A DNA stretch of 20,290 bases from positions 1 through 20,290 of IMG/VR virus record IMGVR_UViG_3300034418_000737; one strand, given 5' to 3'. Made by a program: the position numbers and the translations under genes. Positions 7,732-15,027 of the stretch are shown in pieces (the first letter of the stretch is position 1; each line of letters starts with the position of its first letter). The stretch is from a virus. A model generated the notes under the pieces. That model did no database searches and was not told where the DNA came from. It was given only the letters and a program-made list of their open reading frames with translations.

Positions 7732-8835
7732 TTACTCACTGACGTTCGATTTTACACATACGTTTCTCTGTGTCAATGCACTATTTGCACTTTCATATGT
7801 GTGTTTCATGTATGGACGAACAGAACTCACATGATTGTGACCAGTCACAGACATGATCTGTGGCAGTGGCACACCCTTGTCCACCATCTGTGTTACACCA
7901 GTCCTACGTAAGTCCATCAGCCTCAGTTCCTCTGGCAGACCAGCCTCTCTCATGATACGTCTACCTGTTTTGGATAGACGCTCCATTCTATACGGACTAA
8001 ACACACCGCCTTCTGACTTAGGATATGGTGCAACGTATTTCTGAAAACCAAAGTCACTCTTCTGTTGCTTGAGCATGTAATGAAGATCATCTGATATAGG
8101 CAAGAATACTTCTGCCCTACGCTTGCTCTGTCGCAGGTATAACTGACGTGCTTCCATGTCTATGTTGTCCCAAGTAAGCACTCGCATATCACCCAACCGT
8201 TGGCACCATTCGTATGCCATCTGCACTATGAGTCCGACATTACGATATTCAAAAGAAGAATAAGCAACATCAAGAAAGTTGATAACATGTTCGTGTTCCC
8301 ATACTACCTTCCTTTGCTTTGCCTGTTTGCGTTTGATGTTACCAAACGGATTGACCGTAGCCTCTTCCATTGTGATGGCGTAGTTGAACACTCTGCTTGA
8401 CGCAGTAGCCACATGATTAGCAAAACTGACACCACGTTTCACCCATTCTTCGTATACTTGCTTTGCAACCTTAGATGTAACAGACAGGTATGGCTTGCTA
8501 CCAATTGCCGCACACAACTCAGACAAACAATAACGATAATCAACTTTAGTTGTGTCACGTAACATGCTGAAATCATTAGACTGATAGTAGAAGTCTACCA
8601 AGTCAGCAACGGTGCTACTCTTATTAAGTTTAACAATCTTAGATTGTTCTTCACGATACTTATCAATGCGATTGTTATACTCCCTCACTACCTTACGTGC
8701 TTCACGAATGTCACTTGGCAACTCACCACGTTCAACAAGGCCAGCGTCTACCCATTTCTGTGGTGGGTTGTAACGATAGGTGATGCCGCCAGATGGCGAC
8801 ACCCTTTGTTGCACATAGCGTGGTAGCTTAGGCAT
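7732..8835 (-). CDS. int: tyrosine recombinase / phage integrase
   Basis: A 367-residue integrase. The start is the ATG at 8835, which overlaps the upstream stop as TAATG; a longer reading from 8877 would run into the DUF932 gene. An N-terminal arm-binding region and a core-binding domain (about 70-165) precede the catalytic domain. Catalytic positions are Arg213 (QRLGDMR), Lys238 (QSKRRAE), Arg310 in MDLRRTG, His333 in TGHNH and Tyr342 in RPYMKHT. The usual His of the HxxR box is Met307 here, a substitution known to be tolerated at this position. It lies inside the replication array rather than next to a repressor, and no att site or tRNA is visible beside it. Confidence 0.92.
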   Translation of the reverse strand: MPKLPRYVQQRVSPSGGITYRYNPPQKWVDAGLVERGELPSDIREARKVVREYNNRIDKYREEQSKIVKLNKSSTVADLVDFYYQSNDFSMLRDTTKVDYRYCLSELCAAIGSKPYLSVTSKVAKQVYEEWVKRGVSFANHVATASSRVFNYAITMEEATVNPFGNIKRKQAKQRKVVWEHEHVINFLDVAYSSFEYRNVGLIVQMAYEWCQRLGDMRVLTWDNIDMEARQLYLRQSKRRAEVFLPISDDLHYMLKQQKSDFGFQKYVAPYPKSEGGVFSPYRMERLSKTGRRIMREAGLPEELRLMDLRRTGVTQMVDKGVPLPQIMSVTGHNHVSSVRPYMKHTYESANSALTQRNVCVKSNVSE

Positions 8836-9668
8836 TACGCTGCCTCTAACAACTTGAACCGCTTGTCGCTGACCCACTTGCTTACCTCCTGTTCACGTGA
8901 CCACATGCTGATTGCTTGTGTATCATTGCCTGTGTTCTTCAGGTTAAAACCATTACGATCATCAGCATACGATGCATAGTTTGTGAAGGCAGAATACAGT
9001 GCCCATTTGTTGTGACCACGGACAGCAGCCTCTTGCATATACAGGCTATACATACGCTCAGCTTTACGCTTAGAGCCTACCATCTCTTCCAGCAGTGACG
9101 ACACATTCACATAACGCAGGCTGGTCTGTGCCCACACCTGCAGCTCCTGTGTCTGCTTCCAGAAGTCTGACTGTGCACGGTGCAGCTCATAGATGAAGCT
9201 GTCCATTGTGAAGTTGGCTGTGTTCTTACGACGCACCTTGTCATAGTCACCACGGATCATGCCATTGGTGCAGAAGAAATCAATCTGCCCAAAGAACACT
9301 TGGTTGCTACACGAACCATCAATGCCATGCAAAGAGATGATACGCTGTGCCACCTCAGTCTCGTGCTTGTCTGTGGTGATACGTGCAGTGGTGTTAGGCA
9401 GTGTCAGGTCAAGCATAGTCCATGCACCATTACGTGCCGTGCGCCACTTTGTATTGGCACCTACCATAGCATCGTCACCTAGTTCTGACGTGAGTGTATC
9501 AACAACCCCGCTATAAAAATCACGGTGGCTTGCACAAGTAAACTTGTGACCGACAATTCCAAGGTATTCGCCAGTGTTTGCGTTAATGACATATTTTTTG
9601 TCCTCTACTTTGGTGGGTTCAAAGGTAACATCAAAGTCGATGTGATCAGGTAGCATATCGAAAGCCAT
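8835..9668 (-). CDS. DUF932-family phage/plasmid protein
   Basis: The ATG at 9668 is chosen because it has a strong SD (AAAGGAGAC) six bases upstream; an earlier in-frame ATG at 9731 has none. The 277-residue product resembles the DUF932 family of phage and plasmid proteins. It has a central FFCTNGM motif, a later helix-rich part, and an NKWALYSAFTNYASY stretch matching the family's conserved W-x-L-Y-x-A-x-T. The biochemical role is not established. Its location beside integrase and the replication genes fits the family's usual association with replication modules. Confidence 0.82.
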   Translation of the reverse strand: MAFDMLPDHIDFDVTFEPTKVEDKKYVINANTGEYLGIVGHKFTCASHRDFYSGVVDTLTSELGDDAMVGANTKWRTARNGAWTMLDLTLPNTTARITTDKHETEVAQRIISLHGIDGSCSNQVFFGQIDFFCTNGMIRGDYDKVRRKNTANFTMDSFIYELHRAQSDFWKQTQELQVWAQTSLRYVNVSSLLEEMVGSKRKAERMYSLYMQEAAVRGHNKWALYSAFTNYASYADDRNGFNLKNTGNDTQAISMWSREQEVSKWVSDKRFKLLEAA

Positions 9669-10123: not shown

Positions 10124-10438
10124 TCAATAATATATTGGGCTGTTTACTTTAGGTCCAACGTTGGACTTATTAGTTTCGTGTTCAAACATTACGTCTTTAC
10201 GAACACGCCAGTATACCCAACTGAACTGGCAGTGGTTTGCATCACGGAACACATACCACGCCACAAAATCTATGATCGGCACGAAGTTAAACTTACCCTC
10301 ACGCTTCCAGCCCCAGTTACGGGCACTGAATGTTTGGTTACTTGGTCCGAACATCAGGACGTTGAACAGGACTGACAGGGCTATCCCTATCCTGCTCACG
10401 TAGTTTATCAAAGTCTTTCCATTCATCGCATGGATCAT
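10124..10438 (-). CDS. small membrane protein carrying a palindrome-encoded tail
   Basis: A 104-residue protein with a hydrophobic segment (about 15-30, SRIGIALSVLFNVLMF) and a second, shorter one (FVPIIDFVAWYVF). Conserved-looking stretches QTFSARN, ID and HCQFSWVYW recall, from memory, a small phage membrane protein family often near lysis genes. Its C-terminal 15 residues include KSNVGPK, encoded by the 14-bp palindrome at 10153-10166. That tail may be an insertion. It overlaps the SleB gene region. The ATG at 10438 is used; one at 10426 is possible. A partner role with the hydrolase is inferred. Confidence 0.65.
   Translation of the reverse strand: MIHAMNGKTLINYVSRIGIALSVLFNVLMFGPSNQTFSARNWGWKREGKFNFVPIIDFVAWYVFRDANHCQFSWVYWRVRKDVMFEHETNKSNVGPKVNSPIYY
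10153..10166. repeat. palindrome copy R1 (perfect)
   Basis: GTCCAACGTTGGAC is a perfect 14-bp palindrome within TTTAGG..ACTTAT context. It lies near the 3' end of the membrane-protein gene and encodes SNVGP on the minus strand. It is the leftmost of six same-orientation copies. Confidence 0.85.
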
Positions 10439-10440
10439 CC

Positions 10441-10680
10441 TCAGTGGATTGCGAGGGGGGCGGGGTGGATGTAGTCATATTCCGCAAACTCCTCGGCTTC
10501 GTATTCAGATACAGAGATCAAGTTAATGTTCACTGCCTCTGGGTGCATGTGCTGTGCCATCATAATGGCAAAGTGTGTGGCTGTTTTCCAATCCTCTACG
10601 GCAGGGTAAGTGTCGTCCAATTGGACAACACTCTCCACACCGTCAATCTCAAGCGTTACTTCGTATGCATTGACGGACAT
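10441..10680 (-). CDS. acidic unknown protein
   Basis: A 79-residue acidic protein (many Glu/Asp) with an N-terminal beta-like stretch (NAYEVTLEIDGVESVVQLDD) and a helix (ATHFAIMMAQHMHP). GGGG lies 9-10 bases before the ATG. A perfect 12-bp palindrome, GTCCAATTGGAC, lies within it at 10615-10626. It lacks the flanks of the six-copy element and may be chance. No family is recognised. Confidence 0.65.
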   Translation of the reverse strand: MSVNAYEVTLEIDGVESVVQLDDTYPAVEDWKTATHFAIMMAQHMHPEAVNINLISVSEYEAEEFAEYDYIHPAPLAIH

Positions 10681-10685
10681 ATGGA

Positions 10686-10910
10686 TTACCCCGCAAAGTG
10701 AAACAGCTTACGCTGCGACATAGGATTACGTTCAACGTATAGGCTACGCTTGCCAACGTGATGTGCTGTCATGCACTTGTCACGCTGGAACAATGCAAGA
10801 CCACGTGACTTGACGCTACGCTTACGATACAAGCCTTTCAGGCCAAGGAAGTTGAAACGAAAGCCTTTGGTGCCATCATTCAGGGGTTTGGTTGCGATGA
10901 TTACGAACAT
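10686..10910 (-). CDS. basic unknown protein
   Basis: A 74-residue basic protein rich in Lys, Arg and Phe, with a strong SD (GAGGAGAAATAAAC). The middle (LKGLYRKRSVKSRGLALFQRDKCM) could bind nucleic acid. One cysteine, no membrane segment. It lies in the run of small early genes and is separated by two bases from the upstream 51-residue gene. Function is unknown. Confidence 0.65.
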   Translation of the reverse strand: MFVIIATKPLNDGTKGFRFNFLGLKGLYRKRSVKSRGLALFQRDKCMTAHHVGKRSLYVERNPMSQRKLFHFAG

Positions 10911-10912
10911 GT

Positions 10913-11068
10913 TTATTTCTCCTCTTTTGGTTTCAGGTCATACTTAGATACAAGTAGGTTATACATCATCATAGCAGCAGTTGTGACCATAGGATCACGT
11001 GCTCTGATCAGCCATGCCTCAAGCTCGGCCATGCTATCTGGTGTTGCAAACATGTCAGCAGGTTTCAT
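10913..11068 (-). CDS. 51-residue unknown protein
   Basis: A short reading frame of 51 residues starting MKPADMFATPDSM and ending KYDLKPKEEK. It fills the space between two likely genes and has AAGGA upstream at a loose spacing. The sequence is helical (AELEAWLIRARDPMVTTAAMMMYNLL) with a charged tail. It may be a small DNA-mimic or regulatory protein, but nothing in it is diagnostic. I include it because it closes an otherwise empty 170-base gap in a packed operon. Confidence 0.55.
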   Translation of the reverse strand: MKPADMFATPDSMAELEAWLIRARDPMVTTAAMMMYNLLVSKYDLKPKEEK

Positions 11069-11080
11069 GTGACAGTATCC

Positions 11081-11467
11081 TTATGCTACACGGACGTTGG
11101 AGGTGTCGATGGCACCAGTTTTGAATATGATTGGTTGCCAGCCATACGAACAGCAGGCATAGGCTTTGTTGCCTACAAGGTCAACAAGCACATCTCCTAC
11201 AGACATTGACGGGTGCTTACGGAAAGGGATCAGGTCACTGTTTACTTTCCTACCATACCCATTGCCTACGTCGAATGCTTCTTCGAGATCGTCAGCAATC
11301 ACGACAGCACTGGGTGTGTATAGGTCACAGGCAGCAGCGGCAGCAACACGTTTCTGTGCGTTGTCCTGCTTCAACATCATGCAGTCAACACGAATGTCCA
11401 GCAACGTCTGATCTGTGAATTGGCTGTTGGGCATTGTGATCTGATACAGAATGTAATGTGGCATCAT
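11081..11467 (-). CDS. unknown protein, 128 residues
   Basis: A 128-residue protein with a beta-rich start (HYILYQITMPN), an Ala-rich helix (VAAAAACDLY) and a C-terminal half with SVGDVLVDLVGNKAYACCSYGWQPI. That last part looks like a small beta fold seen in several phage early proteins. The start overlaps the stop of the upstream 46-residue gene (two tandem ATGs at 11467/11464). No catalytic motif is visible and the function is unknown. Confidence 0.68.
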   Translation of the reverse strand: MMPHYILYQITMPNSQFTDQTLLDIRVDCMMLKQDNAQKRVAAAAACDLYTPSAVVIADDLEEAFDVGNGYGRKVNSDLIPFRKHPSMSVGDVLVDLVGNKAYACCSYGWQPIIFKTGAIDTSNVRVA

Positions 11468-11604
11468 GCAATCCTTTTCTTTTGCAGCATTCGTTTGGTC
11501 ATACGGGCAAGCTCACGCTTACGTTTCCACTCATCACGTTTGATGGGTTTAGGTCCAACATCGGACTTAACAAACTTAATAAAGTTTTTCATTTCGTAAC
11601 GCAT
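11464..11604 (-). CDS. 46-residue basic protein containing palindrome R2
   Basis: A reading frame of 46 residues (MRYEMKNFIKFVKSDVGPK...), very rich in Lys and Arg, ending KRMLQKKRIA. AAAGGA lies upstream of the ATG at 11604, and an internal ATG at 11592 is possible. Residues 14-19 (SDVGPK) are encoded by the palindrome copy at 11553-11566. The stop overlaps the next start (ATGATG). High charge suggests nucleic-acid binding. It overlaps the upstream gene by 29 bases. Confidence 0.6.
   Translation of the reverse strand: MRYEMKNFIKFVKSDVGPKPIKRDEWKRKRELARMTKRMLQKKRIA
11553..11566. repeat. palindrome copy R2 (degenerate)
   Basis: GTCCAACATCGGAC, one step away from the R4/R5 variant, with the same TTTAGG and TTAA flanks as the other copies. 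It is inside the 46-residue gene and encodes SDVGP; the variant base changes Asn to Asp but keeps the frame. Confidence 0.8.
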
Positions 11605-11728
11605 TTTGCTTTTCCTTTCTGCTAAGCTTGCGTTTGTTACCCTTCTTAGGTGGTATGACCTGTGGGGCTTTGCGCTCTTGCAGCATAGCCTTTGCCACAG
11701 GGTTTACAATCCCCACTTTTGGTTTCAT
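11576..11728 (-). CDS. 50-residue basic protein, unknown
   Basis: The ATG at 11728 overlaps the upstream stop (ATGA), which decides this start over one at 11758. The 50-residue product is strongly basic, with a Lys/Arg run after a Pro-rich turn (QVIPPKKGNKRKLSRKEK). It may bind nucleic acid. It sits between the 117-residue gene and the 46-residue gene in a run of overlapping small frames. No family is recognised. Confidence 0.55.
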   Translation of the reverse strand: MKPKVGIVNPVAKAMLQERKAPQVIPPKKGNKRKLSRKEKQNALRNEKLY

Positions 11729-12078
11729 ATCACATACACCTTTCTGTCTTGCATCCATGCCAGTGATGCACCATCGAATACGCCTTCGTTGTCTTTGTAA
11801 ACAAAGCTATCATACTTGTATGGGTTGTATGTGATTTCATCCCACATATCAAACCCCCACGGCGTGTCCTGATCTAACAACTTGCCTACTAACCCAGCAT
11901 GAACATTCTTGCGCCGTTCTTTTAAGACACGATTACGCCCTGCTTGAGACACCTTGCCCTCTGGGCTTAGCAACATAACACTGTCACGATGGGCAATCAC
12001 CTTGCCCTTGTTATCGCCTTCCAGTGCCTTAATGGACCACAGCTTGCGGTGCAGGTTATAGTATACAAATACCTTCAT
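11725..12078 (-). CDS. conserved phage early protein (MKVFVYYNLHRKLWS type)
   Basis: A 117-residue protein. The ATG at 12078 is chosen because longer readings overlap the upstream gene deeply. The sequence pattern (MKVFVYYNLHRKLWSIKALEG, then KGKVIAHRDSVML, then KVSQAGRNRVLKERRKNVHAG) is one I recall from many phage genomes as a conserved hypothetical protein, with no known role. It starts one base after the Gp88-like gene's stop and ends in an ATGA overlap with the next gene. It is mixed alpha/beta and not membrane bound. Confidence 0.75.
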   Translation of the reverse strand: MKVFVYYNLHRKLWSIKALEGDNKGKVIAHRDSVMLLSPEGKVSQAGRNRVLKERRKNVHAGLVGKLLDQDTPWGFDMWDEITYNPYKYDSFVYKDNEGVFDGASLAWMQDRKVYVI

Positions 12079-12079
12079 G

Positions 12080-12778
12080 TCAGTGCTCCGACAAATGCAC
12101 AACGGTGGTGCGGTTGATAGTTTTCTGCGAGAAACAGCCAGCCTTGCAGTCAGCACAATGGCCAGACATTTTCTTCCATGTCTTGGGGCATTTGAACATG
12201 CGTTCACCATTCGGTGCAACAGTGCGGCTGTCGTCGCCATAGAACATGATATTCCAGCCAGCATCCATCATGTCATGCCATTCGGCATCAGTGTTAGACG
12301 GGTCAAACGATGCATTGATGGCGCAGTTCGGCAGCGTCATAAGCTCAATCTCAATCAAGCTGCGAAGCAAGACATTGCGCCAAGCACGAGTCGGTATCCA
12401 CCACAATGTGTCTGGCATAGCCTCACACATAGCCTTAATGCGGTATACGTCCTGAATGTCCTTGATGGCTTCGCCACGGGTCATGTGACGAACACGTTTG
12501 GTCTGCTTACGTTTCTTGTACAGCCAAGCTTTGACATTCGTCATGGAATGCACATCCAGCTTTTGCCAGATTGTTTCACAACGATCATCACGCTTGGCCA
12601 TGTTCTTATACATTCGATACAGCTTGACGTTATAGCATGTCGTATCGCAGTAGTCAGTGCGGTGCACACAAGTCCCTTTGTGATTGTCAGTGTCGTTGAT
12701 AGGGCGGTCAGAGGCAAACATGCCAATGTCGTCACAGAAACGAAACAGATCATTCAATTCAGCGTTAGAGACTGTCAT
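12080..12778 (-). CDS. Gp88-like cysteine-containing phage protein
   Basis: A 232-residue protein with an N-terminal cysteine group (TCVHRTDYCDTTCYNVKLYR, about 36-55), a middle stretch with RHMTRGEAIKDIQDVY and LWWIPTRAWRN, and a C-terminal group CPKTWKKMSGHCADCKAGC. This order, cysteines then an 'R-H-x-S/T-G-E/D' segment then 'TR' then a CxxCxxxC cluster, recalls the mycobacteriophage Gp88 family. The family may bind a metal or Fe-S cluster, but its role is unknown. The start has an SD inside a small stem (AACCTGAAAGGTT), and palindrome R3 lies just upstream. Confidence 0.6.
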   Translation of the reverse strand: MTVSNAELNDLFRFCDDIGMFASDRPINDTDNHKGTCVHRTDYCDTTCYNVKLYRMYKNMAKRDDRCETIWQKLDVHSMTNVKAWLYKKRKQTKRVRHMTRGEAIKDIQDVYRIKAMCEAMPDTLWWIPTRAWRNVLLRSLIEIELMTLPNCAINASFDPSNTDAEWHDMMDAGWNIMFYGDDSRTVAPNGERMFKCPKTWKKMSGHCADCKAGCFSQKTINRTTVVHLSEH

Positions 12779-12784
12779 GGGTTT

Positions 12785-12797
12785 AACCTTTCAGGTT
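12785..12797 (-). promoter_or_regulatory. SD hairpin, copy 1
   Basis: AACCTTTCAGGTT on the plus strand; in the mRNA AACCU-GAA-AGGUU forms a 5-bp stem enclosing the SD (AAAGG) of the Gp88-like gene. The same 13 bases occur upstream of the gene starting at 13296. Confidence 0.5.
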
Positions 12798-12802
12798 GTT
12801 AG

Positions 12803-12816
12803 GTCCAACGTTGGAC
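12803..12816. repeat. palindrome copy R3 (perfect, intergenic)
   Basis: GTCCAACGTTGGAC with TTAGG/TTAAG flanks, lying in the non-coding gap upstream of the Gp88-like gene. It is identical to R1 in its core, which shows the element is not kept only because of the peptide it encodes elsewhere. Confidence 0.85.
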
Positions 12817-12844
12817 TTAAGTTTCAGTTACACTGTATATACAT

Positions 12845-12884
12845 GTTATATAACACTTTCAATAAATATCAAGTGTTATATAAC
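12845..12884. repeat. 14-bp perfect inverted repeat around AT-rich centre
   Basis: GTTATATAACACTT and AAGTGTTATATAAC flank a 12-base centre. It contains TAACAC-N16-GTGTTA, the same half-sites as the three control-region operators with 11 more bases of spacing. It lies between two minus-strand genes and lacks a following T-run on either strand, so it looks more like a binding site than a terminator. Confidence 0.7.
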
Positions 12885-12898
12885 TGTAATACTAGTGT

Positions 12899-13111
12899 TT
12901 AGTTAGCATCTTTCCAGCCACTGTCTTGTGACCAGCTTACGATGTGATTGTCACTGTCTTTGACGATAGTCAATTTAGGTCCAACATTGGACTTAGCCTT
13001 TGCCGCTTGCAGCTTGTTAAGCATACGCATAACTCGCTCTTGCTGCGTAGGTTTACGAAGCCGAGCACTGCTAGAATGCCAATTGAATTGCTTATGCAAT
13101 TTGTATGCCAT
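12899..13111 (-). CDS. 70-residue basic protein containing palindrome R4
   Basis: The ATG at 13111 overlaps the upstream stop (TGATG), favouring it over one at 13126. The 70-residue product begins MAYKLHKQFNWHSSS, then has a basic helix (ERVMRMLNKLQAAKAK), then the palindrome-encoded KSNVGPK, then TIVKDSDNHIVSW. The element sits at a junction between a helix and a beta-like tail. It may bind nucleic acid. Family unknown. Confidence 0.62.
   Translation of the reverse strand: MAYKLHKQFNWHSSSARLRKPTQQERVMRMLNKLQAAKAKSNVGPKLTIVKDSDNHIVSWSQDSGWKDAN
12979..12992. repeat. palindrome copy R4
   Basis: GTCCAACATTGGAC, arms GTCCAA/TTGGAC, in a TTTAGG..ACTTAG context inside the 70-residue gene, encoding SNVGP in the same frame as R1, R2 and R5. 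Confidence 0.85.
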
Positions 13112-13296
13112 CACATTCCTGCCCATTCTTCCGGGGTGATACCCGTCATGAGAAACTCACGTTGCTCTGGTGACAAATGTGGCATGACGTTTTGGATCAA
13201 AGATCCATTCAGCCATTCAGCCAATTGCTCATTTGTGACAGGCAAATCCATTTCATGGATTATGCCAGACAGAATGGATTCACGTTTGATAAGCAT
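13111..13296 (-). CDS. conserved small phage protein (PVTNEQLAEWLNG type)
   Basis: The ATG at 13296 follows an SD in a small stem (AACCTGAAAGGTT), favouring it over the ATG at 13329. The 61-residue product has the pattern VHEM-like IIHEMDLPVT, QLAEW, G-LIQNVMPHLSPEQREFLMTGITPEEW, which I recall from many phages as a conserved hypothetical. It resembles a small all-helical, possibly regulatory, protein. It overlaps the next start. No function is established. Confidence 0.75.
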   Translation of the reverse strand: MLIKRESILSGIIHEMDLPVTNEQLAEWLNGSLIQNVMPHLSPEQREFLMTGITPEEWAGM

Positions 13297-13301
13297 GTTG
13301 T

Positions 13302-13314
13302 AACCTTTCAGGTT
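13302..13314 (-). promoter_or_regulatory. SD hairpin, copy 2
   Basis: Identical 13 bases to 12785-12797 (AACCTTTCAGGTT), six bases before the ATG at 13296. The SD AAAGG forms part of a 5-bp stem with a GAA loop in the transcript. Confidence 0.5.
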
Positions 13315-13331
13315 AAGTTGATCCAGCAAGA

Positions 13332-13349
13332 CAGTCCCCGAAGGGACTG
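13332..13349 (-). terminator. 7-bp stem with UUCG loop, weak terminator or processing hairpin
   Basis: On the leftward transcript CAGTCCC-TTCG-GGGACTG forms a perfect stem closed by a very stable C(UUCG)G loop. It is just after the first early gene. The downstream bases (TCTTGCTGG) are not a proper U-run, so partial termination or 3'-end protection is as likely as full termination. AGCAAGAC flanks it on both sides as a direct repeat. Confidence 0.4.
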
Positions 13350-13365
13350 CCCAAGCAAGACTAAC

Positions 13366-13962
13366 TTATGCAGCTTTGCTGTCAATCGTCTTGGCATTGT
13401 CAGCATATTCTGCAAGAATATCGTCGATAACATCAAGGATGTTAATGCCATTGACTTTGCAGACAGCTTTCAGCTGTTTAACGATTTCAGCTTTGCTGAC
13501 TACGCTAGGCTGCTCATTAACAGCTTTGCTGTCAGCTTGCTCTGGTCCAACATTGGACTTAACATCACTTTCAGTGGTGGCATCGGCTTCAGCCTTCGGC
13601 TTAGCCTTACGCATTGCAGCTTGTAAAGCTGTGAGGCTGGTAAAACCTTTCTTGCTTTCAGCAATAAACTTGCGGCATTCAACTTCGTTTTCAACGAACC
13701 ACAGTGCTTCGGAGCGACGACGTTTATCCACAATGTGGATTCCACAATCCTTCAGCCTTTGGCTGGAAATACGCTGACCACCCTCGGCTTTCAATTGCTG
13801 AAGCAATTTGCCAAGACGAGTGTCAAAGCCATCGGCTTTCGTGAAGGCATTGAAACGACGAACATCTGCTTTGCAGATCTTTTTCCACTCTGTTGCCAGA
13901 ATGAAGCCTTCAGCTTCAAGAGTGTTGATTTCAGGCTGTTCGATGGTGGTGATGGTGGTCAT
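13366..13962 (-). CDS. first leftward early protein, two-part, with palindrome-encoded linker
   Basis: A 198-residue protein, the first gene of the leftward array. The N-terminal part (about 15-105) is mixed and charged, with ADVRRFNAFTKADGF and a basic KRRRSEALWF segment that could bind DNA. A Lys/Ala/Glu-rich linker follows and includes KSNVGP, encoded by palindrome R5. The C-terminal part is helical (VSKAEIVKQLKAVCKV..ILDVIDDILAEYADN). A structured leader lies directly upstream. The first early gene often encodes a takeover or regulatory protein, but nothing here proves that. I do not recognise the family. Confidence 0.75.
   Translation of the reverse strand: MTTITTIEQPEINTLEAEGFILATEWKKICKADVRRFNAFTKADGFDTRLGKLLQQLKAEGGQRISSQRLKDCGIHIVDKRRRSEALWFVENEVECRKFIAESKKGFTSLTALQAAMRKAKPKAEADATTESDVKSNVGPEQADSKAVNEQPSVVSKAEIVKQLKAVCKVNGINILDVIDDILAEYADNAKTIDSKAA
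13545..13558. repeat. palindrome copy R5
   Basis: GTCCAACATTGGAC inside the 198-residue gene, encoding SNVGP in its linker. The left flank (TCTGG) differs from TTAGG in the other copies; the right flank ACTTAAC is kept. Confidence 0.85.
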
Positions 13963-13973
13963 GGCTTTCTCTT

Positions 13974-14064
13974 TCTCTATCTAATGTTACATTAAGAGAG
14001 TTTACTTATCTCTCACCCTAAAGTGAGATAAGGAAACTATCTATGTAACTAGATTAGATAGAGA
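13974..14064 (-). repeat. 91-nt long imperfect inverted repeat in the leftward leader
   Basis: Left arm 13974-14016 and right arm 14023-14064 around the loop CCTAAA. Paired blocks, outermost first, are TCTCTATCTAAT, GTTACAT, AGAGAGTTT (one mismatch), CTTATC and TCAC, with only small bulges (TAG, TA, TC). In the leftward transcript it would make a strong stem ending about 11 bases before the first start codon. Confidence 0.8.
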
Positions 14065-14083
14065 GATATAGTTTCGGTGTCAA
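14055..14083 (-). promoter_or_regulatory. possible leftward early promoter
   Basis: On the minus strand a perfect TTGACA (14083-14078) is followed after 17 bases by TATCTA (14060-14055). The -35 is ideal but the -10 matches only three of six bases. It overlaps the right arm of the long inverted repeat. Transcription would start near 14048, at the base of the inner stem. Confidence 0.4.
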
Positions 14084-14255
14084 TAGGGCTAATCAAATTT
14101 GTGTAACAAATTACATGCGTATGCGATCCTCTGCGCCTGCCGTTTCACGCATGGTTGCAAGAAATAAATTTACTTCATAAATTTTTTCTGAAACTCACGT
14201 GCAAAACTCACGAGACAGACCGACCTAAGATCCCATGATAGGTGTGGCATTATTG

Positions 14256-14272
14256 CAACAGTATAACTGTTG
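14256..14272. promoter_or_regulatory. 17-bp palindrome, likely operator
   Basis: CAACAGT-ATA-ACTGTTG, perfect 7-bp arms. A third half-site (AACAGT) is at 14292-14297, so copy R6 of the other palindrome is bracketed by ACTGTT and AACAGT. The minus strand also reads TATACT here, a possible -10. Confidence 0.5.
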
Positions 14273-14276
14273 ACAG

Positions 14277-14290
14277 GTCCAATGTTGGAC
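14277..14290. repeat. palindrome copy R6
   Basis: GTCCAATGTTGGAC, the centre inverted relative to R4/R5 (TG rather than CA), in an ACAGG..ACTAAC context. It is the only copy in the control region and directly adjoins the 14256-14272 palindrome. Confidence 0.8.
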
Positions 14291-14844: not shown

Positions 14845-14857
14845 TATATTATAGAAA

Positions 14858-14893
14858 CTTAGATAACACTTAAAGTGTTACATGTACAGTGTT
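14858..14893. promoter_or_regulatory. operator O2 with repeat unit
   Basis: TAACACTTAAAGTGTTA (14864-14880) has perfect half-sites at spacing five, and eight-base arms in total. It lies about 14-30 bases downstream of the predicted start of the rightward promoter. CTTAGATAACAC (14858) and GTACAGTGTT (14884) recur at operator O3. Confidence 0.65.
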
Positions 14894-14963
14894 TCACTTA
14901 GACGTTTCTATATATTAAGTTAAATATACACTTACTTGTATATAATACTTAAAATAAATAACA

Positions 14964-14986
14964 CTTAGATAACACGTACAGTGTTA
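14964..14986. promoter_or_regulatory. operator O3 with repeat unit
   Basis: TAACACGTACAGTGTTA (14970-14986), perfect half-sites at spacing five, preceded by the same CTTAGA as O2 and sharing GTACAGTGTT with it. It is 106 bases downstream of O2, about ten helical turns. Confidence 0.65.
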
Positions 14987-15027
14987 CACTTAAATGTATT
15001 ATTCCCGAAGGTATAAGATACGTATGT

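Follow-up and report, generated by a model that had tools for sequence, protein, structure and literature searches.

Oriented palindromes along the early operon of HMO-2011-type marine phages and their probable recognition by the operon's first protein

A 20,290-base virus contig from IMG/VR (IMGVR_UViG_3300034418_000737), whose whole length we call the window, carries six copies of the palindrome GTCCAAYRTTGGAC in its early operon, one of them half-changed. In relatives of this phage the copies change together with one residue of gp01, the 198-residue product of the operon's first gene, and for this reason they are most likely landing sites of a previously unrecognised regulator. Judging from sequence comparisons, we think it fairly probable that the palindromes are binding sites of gp01, a DNA-binding autoregulator for which the control-region copy would serve as operator and the copies further down the operon as stoperator-like roadblocks. 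The full-length identities of the window's DNA polymerase to those of the Roseobacter phages CRP-1 and CRP-345 (78%), which are its nearest isolates, and of Puniceispirillum phage HMO-2011 (67%) identify it as an HMO-2011-type marine phage. Its early gene order is that of HMO-2011-type phages, and polymerase sequence and module order agree with this assignment. Phages of this type are very common ocean bacteriophages.

The six copies share one orientation and lie only within positions 10153-14290. The initial annotation had reported them there and nowhere else in the window, which a search of all 20,290 bases for GTCCAACGTTGGAC with at most three mismatches confirmed (6 matches, 0.77 expected, maximum of 3 over 100 shuffles). 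The half-sites GTCCAA and TTGGAC at a spacing of 0-4 were found 6 times against an expectation of 0.02, and five of these pairs are known copies. The sixth, at 10615-10626 (GTCCAATTGGAC), is a spacerless palindrome inside an open reading frame (ORF) of 79 residues and probably a chance occurrence. A common orientation can be assigned because the copies share the flanks TTAg-core-tTAA, which bears out the single orientation first noticed; in operon sense, on the minus strand, their consensus is TTAAGTCCAAYRTTGGACCTAA. Their contexts were also as described (Table 1): four are in ORFs, always in the frame reading S-(N/D)-V-G (as KS(N/D)VGPK or KSNVGPE), one is intergenic and the remaining one belongs to the control region, some 310 nucleotides upstream of the first gene. 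The claim that variation is confined to the centre holds for the two central bases, but not entirely for the half-sites, since one half-site base differs in the copy at 11553.

Scanning relatives, as the initial annotation had suggested, recovered the palindrome in the same early region of more than 100 distinct genomes, and in 52 of 52 viral contigs that were fetched solely by homology to gp01. Each genome has 4-8 of them, spread over the early operon. Twenty large records (41-58 kb) contain the core pattern 4-7 times each. In those listed among them, the copies sit together in a stretch of about 5 kb; the outliers that a few records show are a word resembling a copy, within the integrase gene. 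For 53 loci whose sequence was followed in both directions, 4-7 copies are typical, and the median span is 2.7 kb. Phages of the CRP clade have the word GTCCAAGGTTGGAC in their integrase genes (ERLSKVGR; L019:6868, L054:11646 and others), where it probably reflects protein conservation, a site function being possible, and GCCCAATGTTGGAC, in the counterpart of the window's 282-residue ORF, was rejected as a site, again probably owing to protein conservation.

CRP-1 and CRP-345 have the identical core at equivalent places (in the first gene, in the 46-residue gene, before the GP88-like gene and in the control region), within flanks AAcc-core-actt that change the peptide to PSNVGQ or VSNVGQ. In HMO-2011, AGTCCGACAGCGGACT is found five times (53879, 54808, 61, 1262 and 1927), one of the five being reversed; all lie in the equivalent early region, and the rest of the genome has none. 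Among intergenic copies, 100 of 126 end 18-26 nucleotides before a start, between stop codon and ribosome-binding site. A common asymmetry of flank and centre gives the operon copies of the relatives one orientation relative to transcription; control-region copies are seen in both.

Within a genome the copies agree, and between genomes they differ. Flank classes are TTAA..CTAA in the window, AACC..ACTT in the CRP phages, ACTA..TTA in L038 and ACG in L073 and L148. The majority of genomes have the core class A5:T10. In others the core is G5:C10 (GTCCGATGTCGGAC; all copies in L033, L053, L132 and further genomes), G5-T10 (most copies in L148/L150) or CCCCAACGTTGGGG (all five copies of L149 and L152, most copies of L218). 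Two single copies, L065:7050 and L150:4239, carry the flank and core of another class, which suggests that genes were acquired together with foreign operators.

The class of the site follows residue 111 of gp01. In the first 60 distinct gp01 proteins, Thr111 occurred with A5 in 50 and Ser111 with G5 in 8, so that 58 of 60 agreed; the other two, L036 and L094, each have a single half-changed copy. The proteins fetched afterwards behaved alike, with G5 in 9 of 10 cases of Ser111 and mostly A5 in 26 of 26 cases of Thr111. Over all 117 proteins the combinations were Thr/A5 (92), Ser/G5 (20) and Ser/A5 (5); Thr thus goes with A5:T10 in 92 of 92 and Ser with G5 in 20 of 25. On a gp01 tree built without the helix that contains residue 111, this residue and the site class change seven times each. 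Residue 111 is the most informative column of gp01 (0.506 of 0.66 bits, 117 proteins). The second, 137, is itself encoded by the site, and the columns that follow, 118, 115, 119 and then, lower, 117, are all in the helix of residue 111. Ser111 combined with Lys115 occurs with G5 in 16 of 17 cases, and Ser111 combined with Arg115 is mixed. As a control, the best columns of the neighbouring DUF932, hydrolase and 72-residue proteins accounted for 0.28-0.47 of the entropy; in the same genomes gp01 reached 0.72-0.75. This comparison was limited to well-sampled neighbours, as the GP88-like and 104-residue families had too few members. Recognition of the palindrome by gp01 is strongly supported by these sequence correlations.

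Further positions of gp01 vary with the outer parts of the site. Arg80 is found with pyrimidine|purine flanks at 284 of 291 sites and Lys80 with A| or G| flanks, a split that follows two large clades and may stem from ancestry. In the two genomes with CCCC..GGGG sites, xQRR replaces RRR; Gln81 alone does not set the outer bases, because HMO-2011 has QRR yet keeps GTCC. The HMO-2011 protein concerned, gp74, is a distant gp01 (E 2e-14).

Where the palindrome is translated, its codons show what is being kept. The peptides SNVG, SDVG, PNVG, SNIG and SKVG in gp01 use the palindromic codons in 91 of 91 distinct cases, with Ser always encoded by TCC, whereas serines within the SKKG motif of these proteins freely use AGC, TCA and TCT. 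The initial annotation had reasoned that the peptide occurring without the palindrome would speak against a DNA element; no such SNVG exists among the 91, which favours the DNA. In an AlphaFold model, the copy within gp01 falls in a disordered linker (residues 123-153). Class-III gp01 proteins (e.g. L044, L053) lack SNVGP at this linker, and the sites of those phages sit between genes instead. These observations indicate that what is conserved is the DNA palindrome rather than the peptide. That KSNVGP is itself selected, as a protein motif or tag, with the palindrome as a by-product, would agree with the same frame in all four genes of the window; we rejected this idea, which we consider barely credible, on the intergenic copies, the alternative peptides at the same place (PNVGA, SKVG, SDIG) and the invariably palindromic codons.

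The initial annotation had also considered that a small palindrome might be spreading, its insertions tolerated as extra peptide, in the manner of the palindromic elements of Rickettsia. As in that system, a palindrome is read through as an in-frame peptide, and both the class-III proteins without the peptide at the equivalent linker and the different gaps occupied in different lineages could be taken as traces of insertion. Selection of a site also explains the peptide's absence from the class-III proteins. Rickettsia elements are much longer, whereas here the elements measure 14-24 bp, sequence sharing ends at about 24 bp, copies keep equivalent positions over large divergence and also occur between genes and in the control region, and substitutions are symmetric and concerted with gp01. 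We therefore rejected the mobile element, which has very little probability left.

The model of the 110-residue domain of gp01 is all helical and confident (predicted local distance difference test 90.6, predicted template-modelling score 0.83), and the last helix (98-108) corresponds to residues 110-120 of the protein. Searches of Pfam, PHROGs, NCBIfam and PDB sequences gave nothing convincing, and fold searches with the whole protein and with the confident 110-residue domain found no clear match in PDB. A profile search of PDB sequences likewise gave no relevant match, the presence of an L5-type structure in these sets being unchecked. The one good match in a viral fold set is to a 205-residue protein, taken from its length to be HMO-2011 gp74. 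Low fold scores do not prove a new fold.

In the mechanism we propose, gp01 would bind the palindromes as a dimer, with helix 110-120 contacting each half-site. The control-region copy would be the operator at the early promoter, and the downstream copies, either intergenic about 20 nucleotides before starts or in tolerated linkers within genes, would act as oriented roadblocks to RNA polymerase. By these means gp01 would limit the expression of itself and of the other early genes, possibly as a shut-off of the early operon during infection or in order to silence a prophage. Oriented placement in the operon, combined with either orientation in the control region, is what a polar roadblock predicts. 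That the target is DNA, that transcription is blocked and that the system has a role in lysogeny is what we infer.

Several results weigh against this mechanism. The protein has no recognised DNA-binding fold. CRP-2, CRP-207, CRP-603 and CRP-3 have integrases, and neither gp01 nor the motif was found in them; de novo palindrome searches in the early regions of these four phages and of HTVC033P detected no comparable oriented family. Ser111 occurs with A5 sites in L036/L094/L190 and L225, and single deviant sites exist in the window, L065, L168 and L184. Independent pairs on the gp01 tree changed in the same direction in five cases, in the opposite direction in none and tied in one (sign test by itself, p = 0.06). 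Finally, distinct half-changed operon copies are G5-T10 in 13 cases and A5-C10 in none, a bias that a symmetric DNA site alone does not explain and that would be expected of an RNA hairpin, even if it also fits a DNA site of fixed orientation.

The chief rival to a DNA-binding gp01 is a protein that recognises such a hairpin (5-bp stem, 4-nucleotide loop) on the early mRNA and so controls how the operon is translated, processed or terminated. The 13:0 bias then means G-U pairs in mRNA sense and never A-C, changes in the stem are compensatory, operon copies read one way and many are directly upstream of Shine-Dalgarno sequences, and the non-palindromic centre of HMO-2011, ACAG, would form the loop. 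Yet the control-region copy is equally conserved, in either orientation and with either half-change (5:2), and in the window it may be outside the transcript because it adjoins a promoter-like element on the upstream side. There are also copies deep in ORFs, far from start codons, and sites with U-U or C-U mismatches (GTCC..GGTC in L078 and L072, GTCCCA..TTGGAC in L038). We regard recognition of RNA as unlikely on balance.

Slightly less likely again is that gp01 and its sites are no brake at all, and form either an early activator, with the control copy near -42, or a partition or organising system like ParB-parS. The palindrome of the window adjoins a -35-like hexamer on its upstream side, as would suit an activator, and many dispersed palindromes are linked to one phage protein. 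In ParB-parS systems, too, a single protein binds scattered palindromes (about 14-16 bp), many of them intragenic. Here, however, the sites are oriented with transcription and restricted to one early operon, where they often fall in the gap that separates a stop codon from the next ribosome-binding site. Pfam searches gave gp01 no ParB family match above threshold; one member had a KorB hit with an E-value of 0.12.

The candidate promoter beside the control-region copy (Table 1) does not exceed chance by its 9 of 12 matches alone, nor did a promoter scan give a result above chance; a similar layout is present in many, not all, relatives, and in the window and some of them the copy adjoins its upstream side. 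Short inverted repeats of varying sequence (CAACAGTTATACTGTTG, CATATACAAAGTATATG, CATCTAAAGATG) occupy a fixed place between the control copy and an AT-rich -10-like hexamer, in the window (14249-14276) as in relatives. Directly upstream of gp01, at 13970-14060, there is a long conserved leader hairpin (GTTACA..CTCTC..CCCTAAAG..GAGAG..TGTAAC), which is similar in CRP-1, CRP-345 and L038-type phages. A second palindrome family, AACACTT..AAGTGTT, is found in the control region (14857-14882, 14963-14988) and at 12843-12872, where it overlaps the promoter-like element before the GP88-like gene; it is also present in the control regions of CRP-1 and HMO-2011. In CRP-1 and CRP-345 (L021, L022), TTGTGATCACAA palindromes adjoin the control-region copy.

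Table 1. Palindrome copies and associated features of the window.
Feature	Position	Strand	Remarks
Control-region copy, proposed operator	14277..14290	-	GTCCAACATTGGAC in operon sense; adjoins sigma70-like promoter
Candidate early promoter	14249..14276	-	CTGTCA, 16-nucleotide spacer with inverted repeat CAACAGTTATACTGTTG, AATAAT; 9/12 consensus matches
gp01, 198 residues, first gene of early operon, proposed palindrome-binding protein	13366..13962	-	
gp01 residues K80-R81	13720..13725	-	K/R80 tracks core-flanking bases; shared ancestry may partly explain this
gp01 helix 110-120 (LTALQAAMRKA), proposed recognition helix	13603..13635	-	residue 111 (T/S) tracks operator position 5
Copy within gp01 (KSNVGPE)	13545..13558	-	predicted disordered linker, residues 123-153
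Copy within 75-residue ORF 12899-13126 (KSNVGPK)	12979..12992	-	
Intergenic copy	12803..12816	-	24 nucleotides ahead of ATG of GP88-like gene (12080-12778), downstream of promoter-like TTGATA/TAACAT
Copy within 46-residue ORF (KSDVGPK)	11553..11566	-	half-changed core GTCCGATGTTGGAC
46-residue ORF MRYEMKNFIKF...	11464..11604	-	40 distinct proteins of relatives with site at equivalent place
Copy near end of 104-residue ORF 10124-10438 (KSNVGPK)	10153..10166	-	directly ahead of cell-wall-hydrolase start
Tyrosine integrase, same operon as palindromes	7732..8877	-	possible temperate life style

Among known systems, the operators of lambda cI and P22 type are palindromic and the bases of their half-sites follow residues of the recognition helix. 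They cluster at promoters, however, whereas the present sites are dispersed through a transcribed operon, and no match linked gp01 to the family of the lambda repressor. The likeness to stoperators of mycobacteriophage L5 and other cluster A phages, which the initial annotation had proposed, goes further: in both systems, phages with an integrase have many short sites for a single protein of their own, and these sites lie at the early promoter as well as further down operons and point in the direction of transcription (PMC9283540, PMC6550527). The motif and the repressor of L5 diverge together between lineages (PMC6550527), as do site motif and gp01, and L5 sites that have been reversed no longer affect elongation (PMC9283540). 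The equivalent places in relatives, the orientation, the concerted change and the co-variation with gp01 support this part of the proposal to the extent that sequences allow. The form of the sites does not: those of L5 are asymmetric, 13 bp long, bound by a monomer with a helix-turn-helix and a stoperator domain, and can reach about 30 in a genome, mostly where short gaps separate genes (PMC9283540, PMC6550527), whereas ours are near-perfect palindromes of 14 bp, with 4-8 per genome, in the early operon only and about half of them in ORFs in one frame. By sequence, gp01 matches no solved structure or curated family. On present evidence the system does not belong with that of L5: its sites are palindromes, and the searches described above, whose sets may or may not include an L5-type structure, showed no homology of gp01 to the L5 repressor, gp71. 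It is conceivable, if rather doubtful, that gp01 founds a new family of unsolved fold, whose members use oriented, gene-embedded palindromes to regulate an operon over its entire length, possibly acting on a hairpin of the nascent RNA instead of on DNA, with an immunity-like specificity switched by very few residues of one helix.

All 20 gp01 loci that are long enough to tell have an integrase. CRP-3, in which no gp01 was found, integrates at a tRNA gene (PMC6918029). Our analysis yields a candidate regulator in CRP-1, CRP-345 and HMO-2011 together with a list of its sites, as well as a series of naturally occurring operator switches with matching residue changes. It suggests that operators can be kept within genes by being read as a harmless peptide. 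For the HMO-2011-type phages, it offers a specific and testable explanation of how early genes may be controlled in members that have an integrase, and cross-immunity groups could be predicted from sequence.

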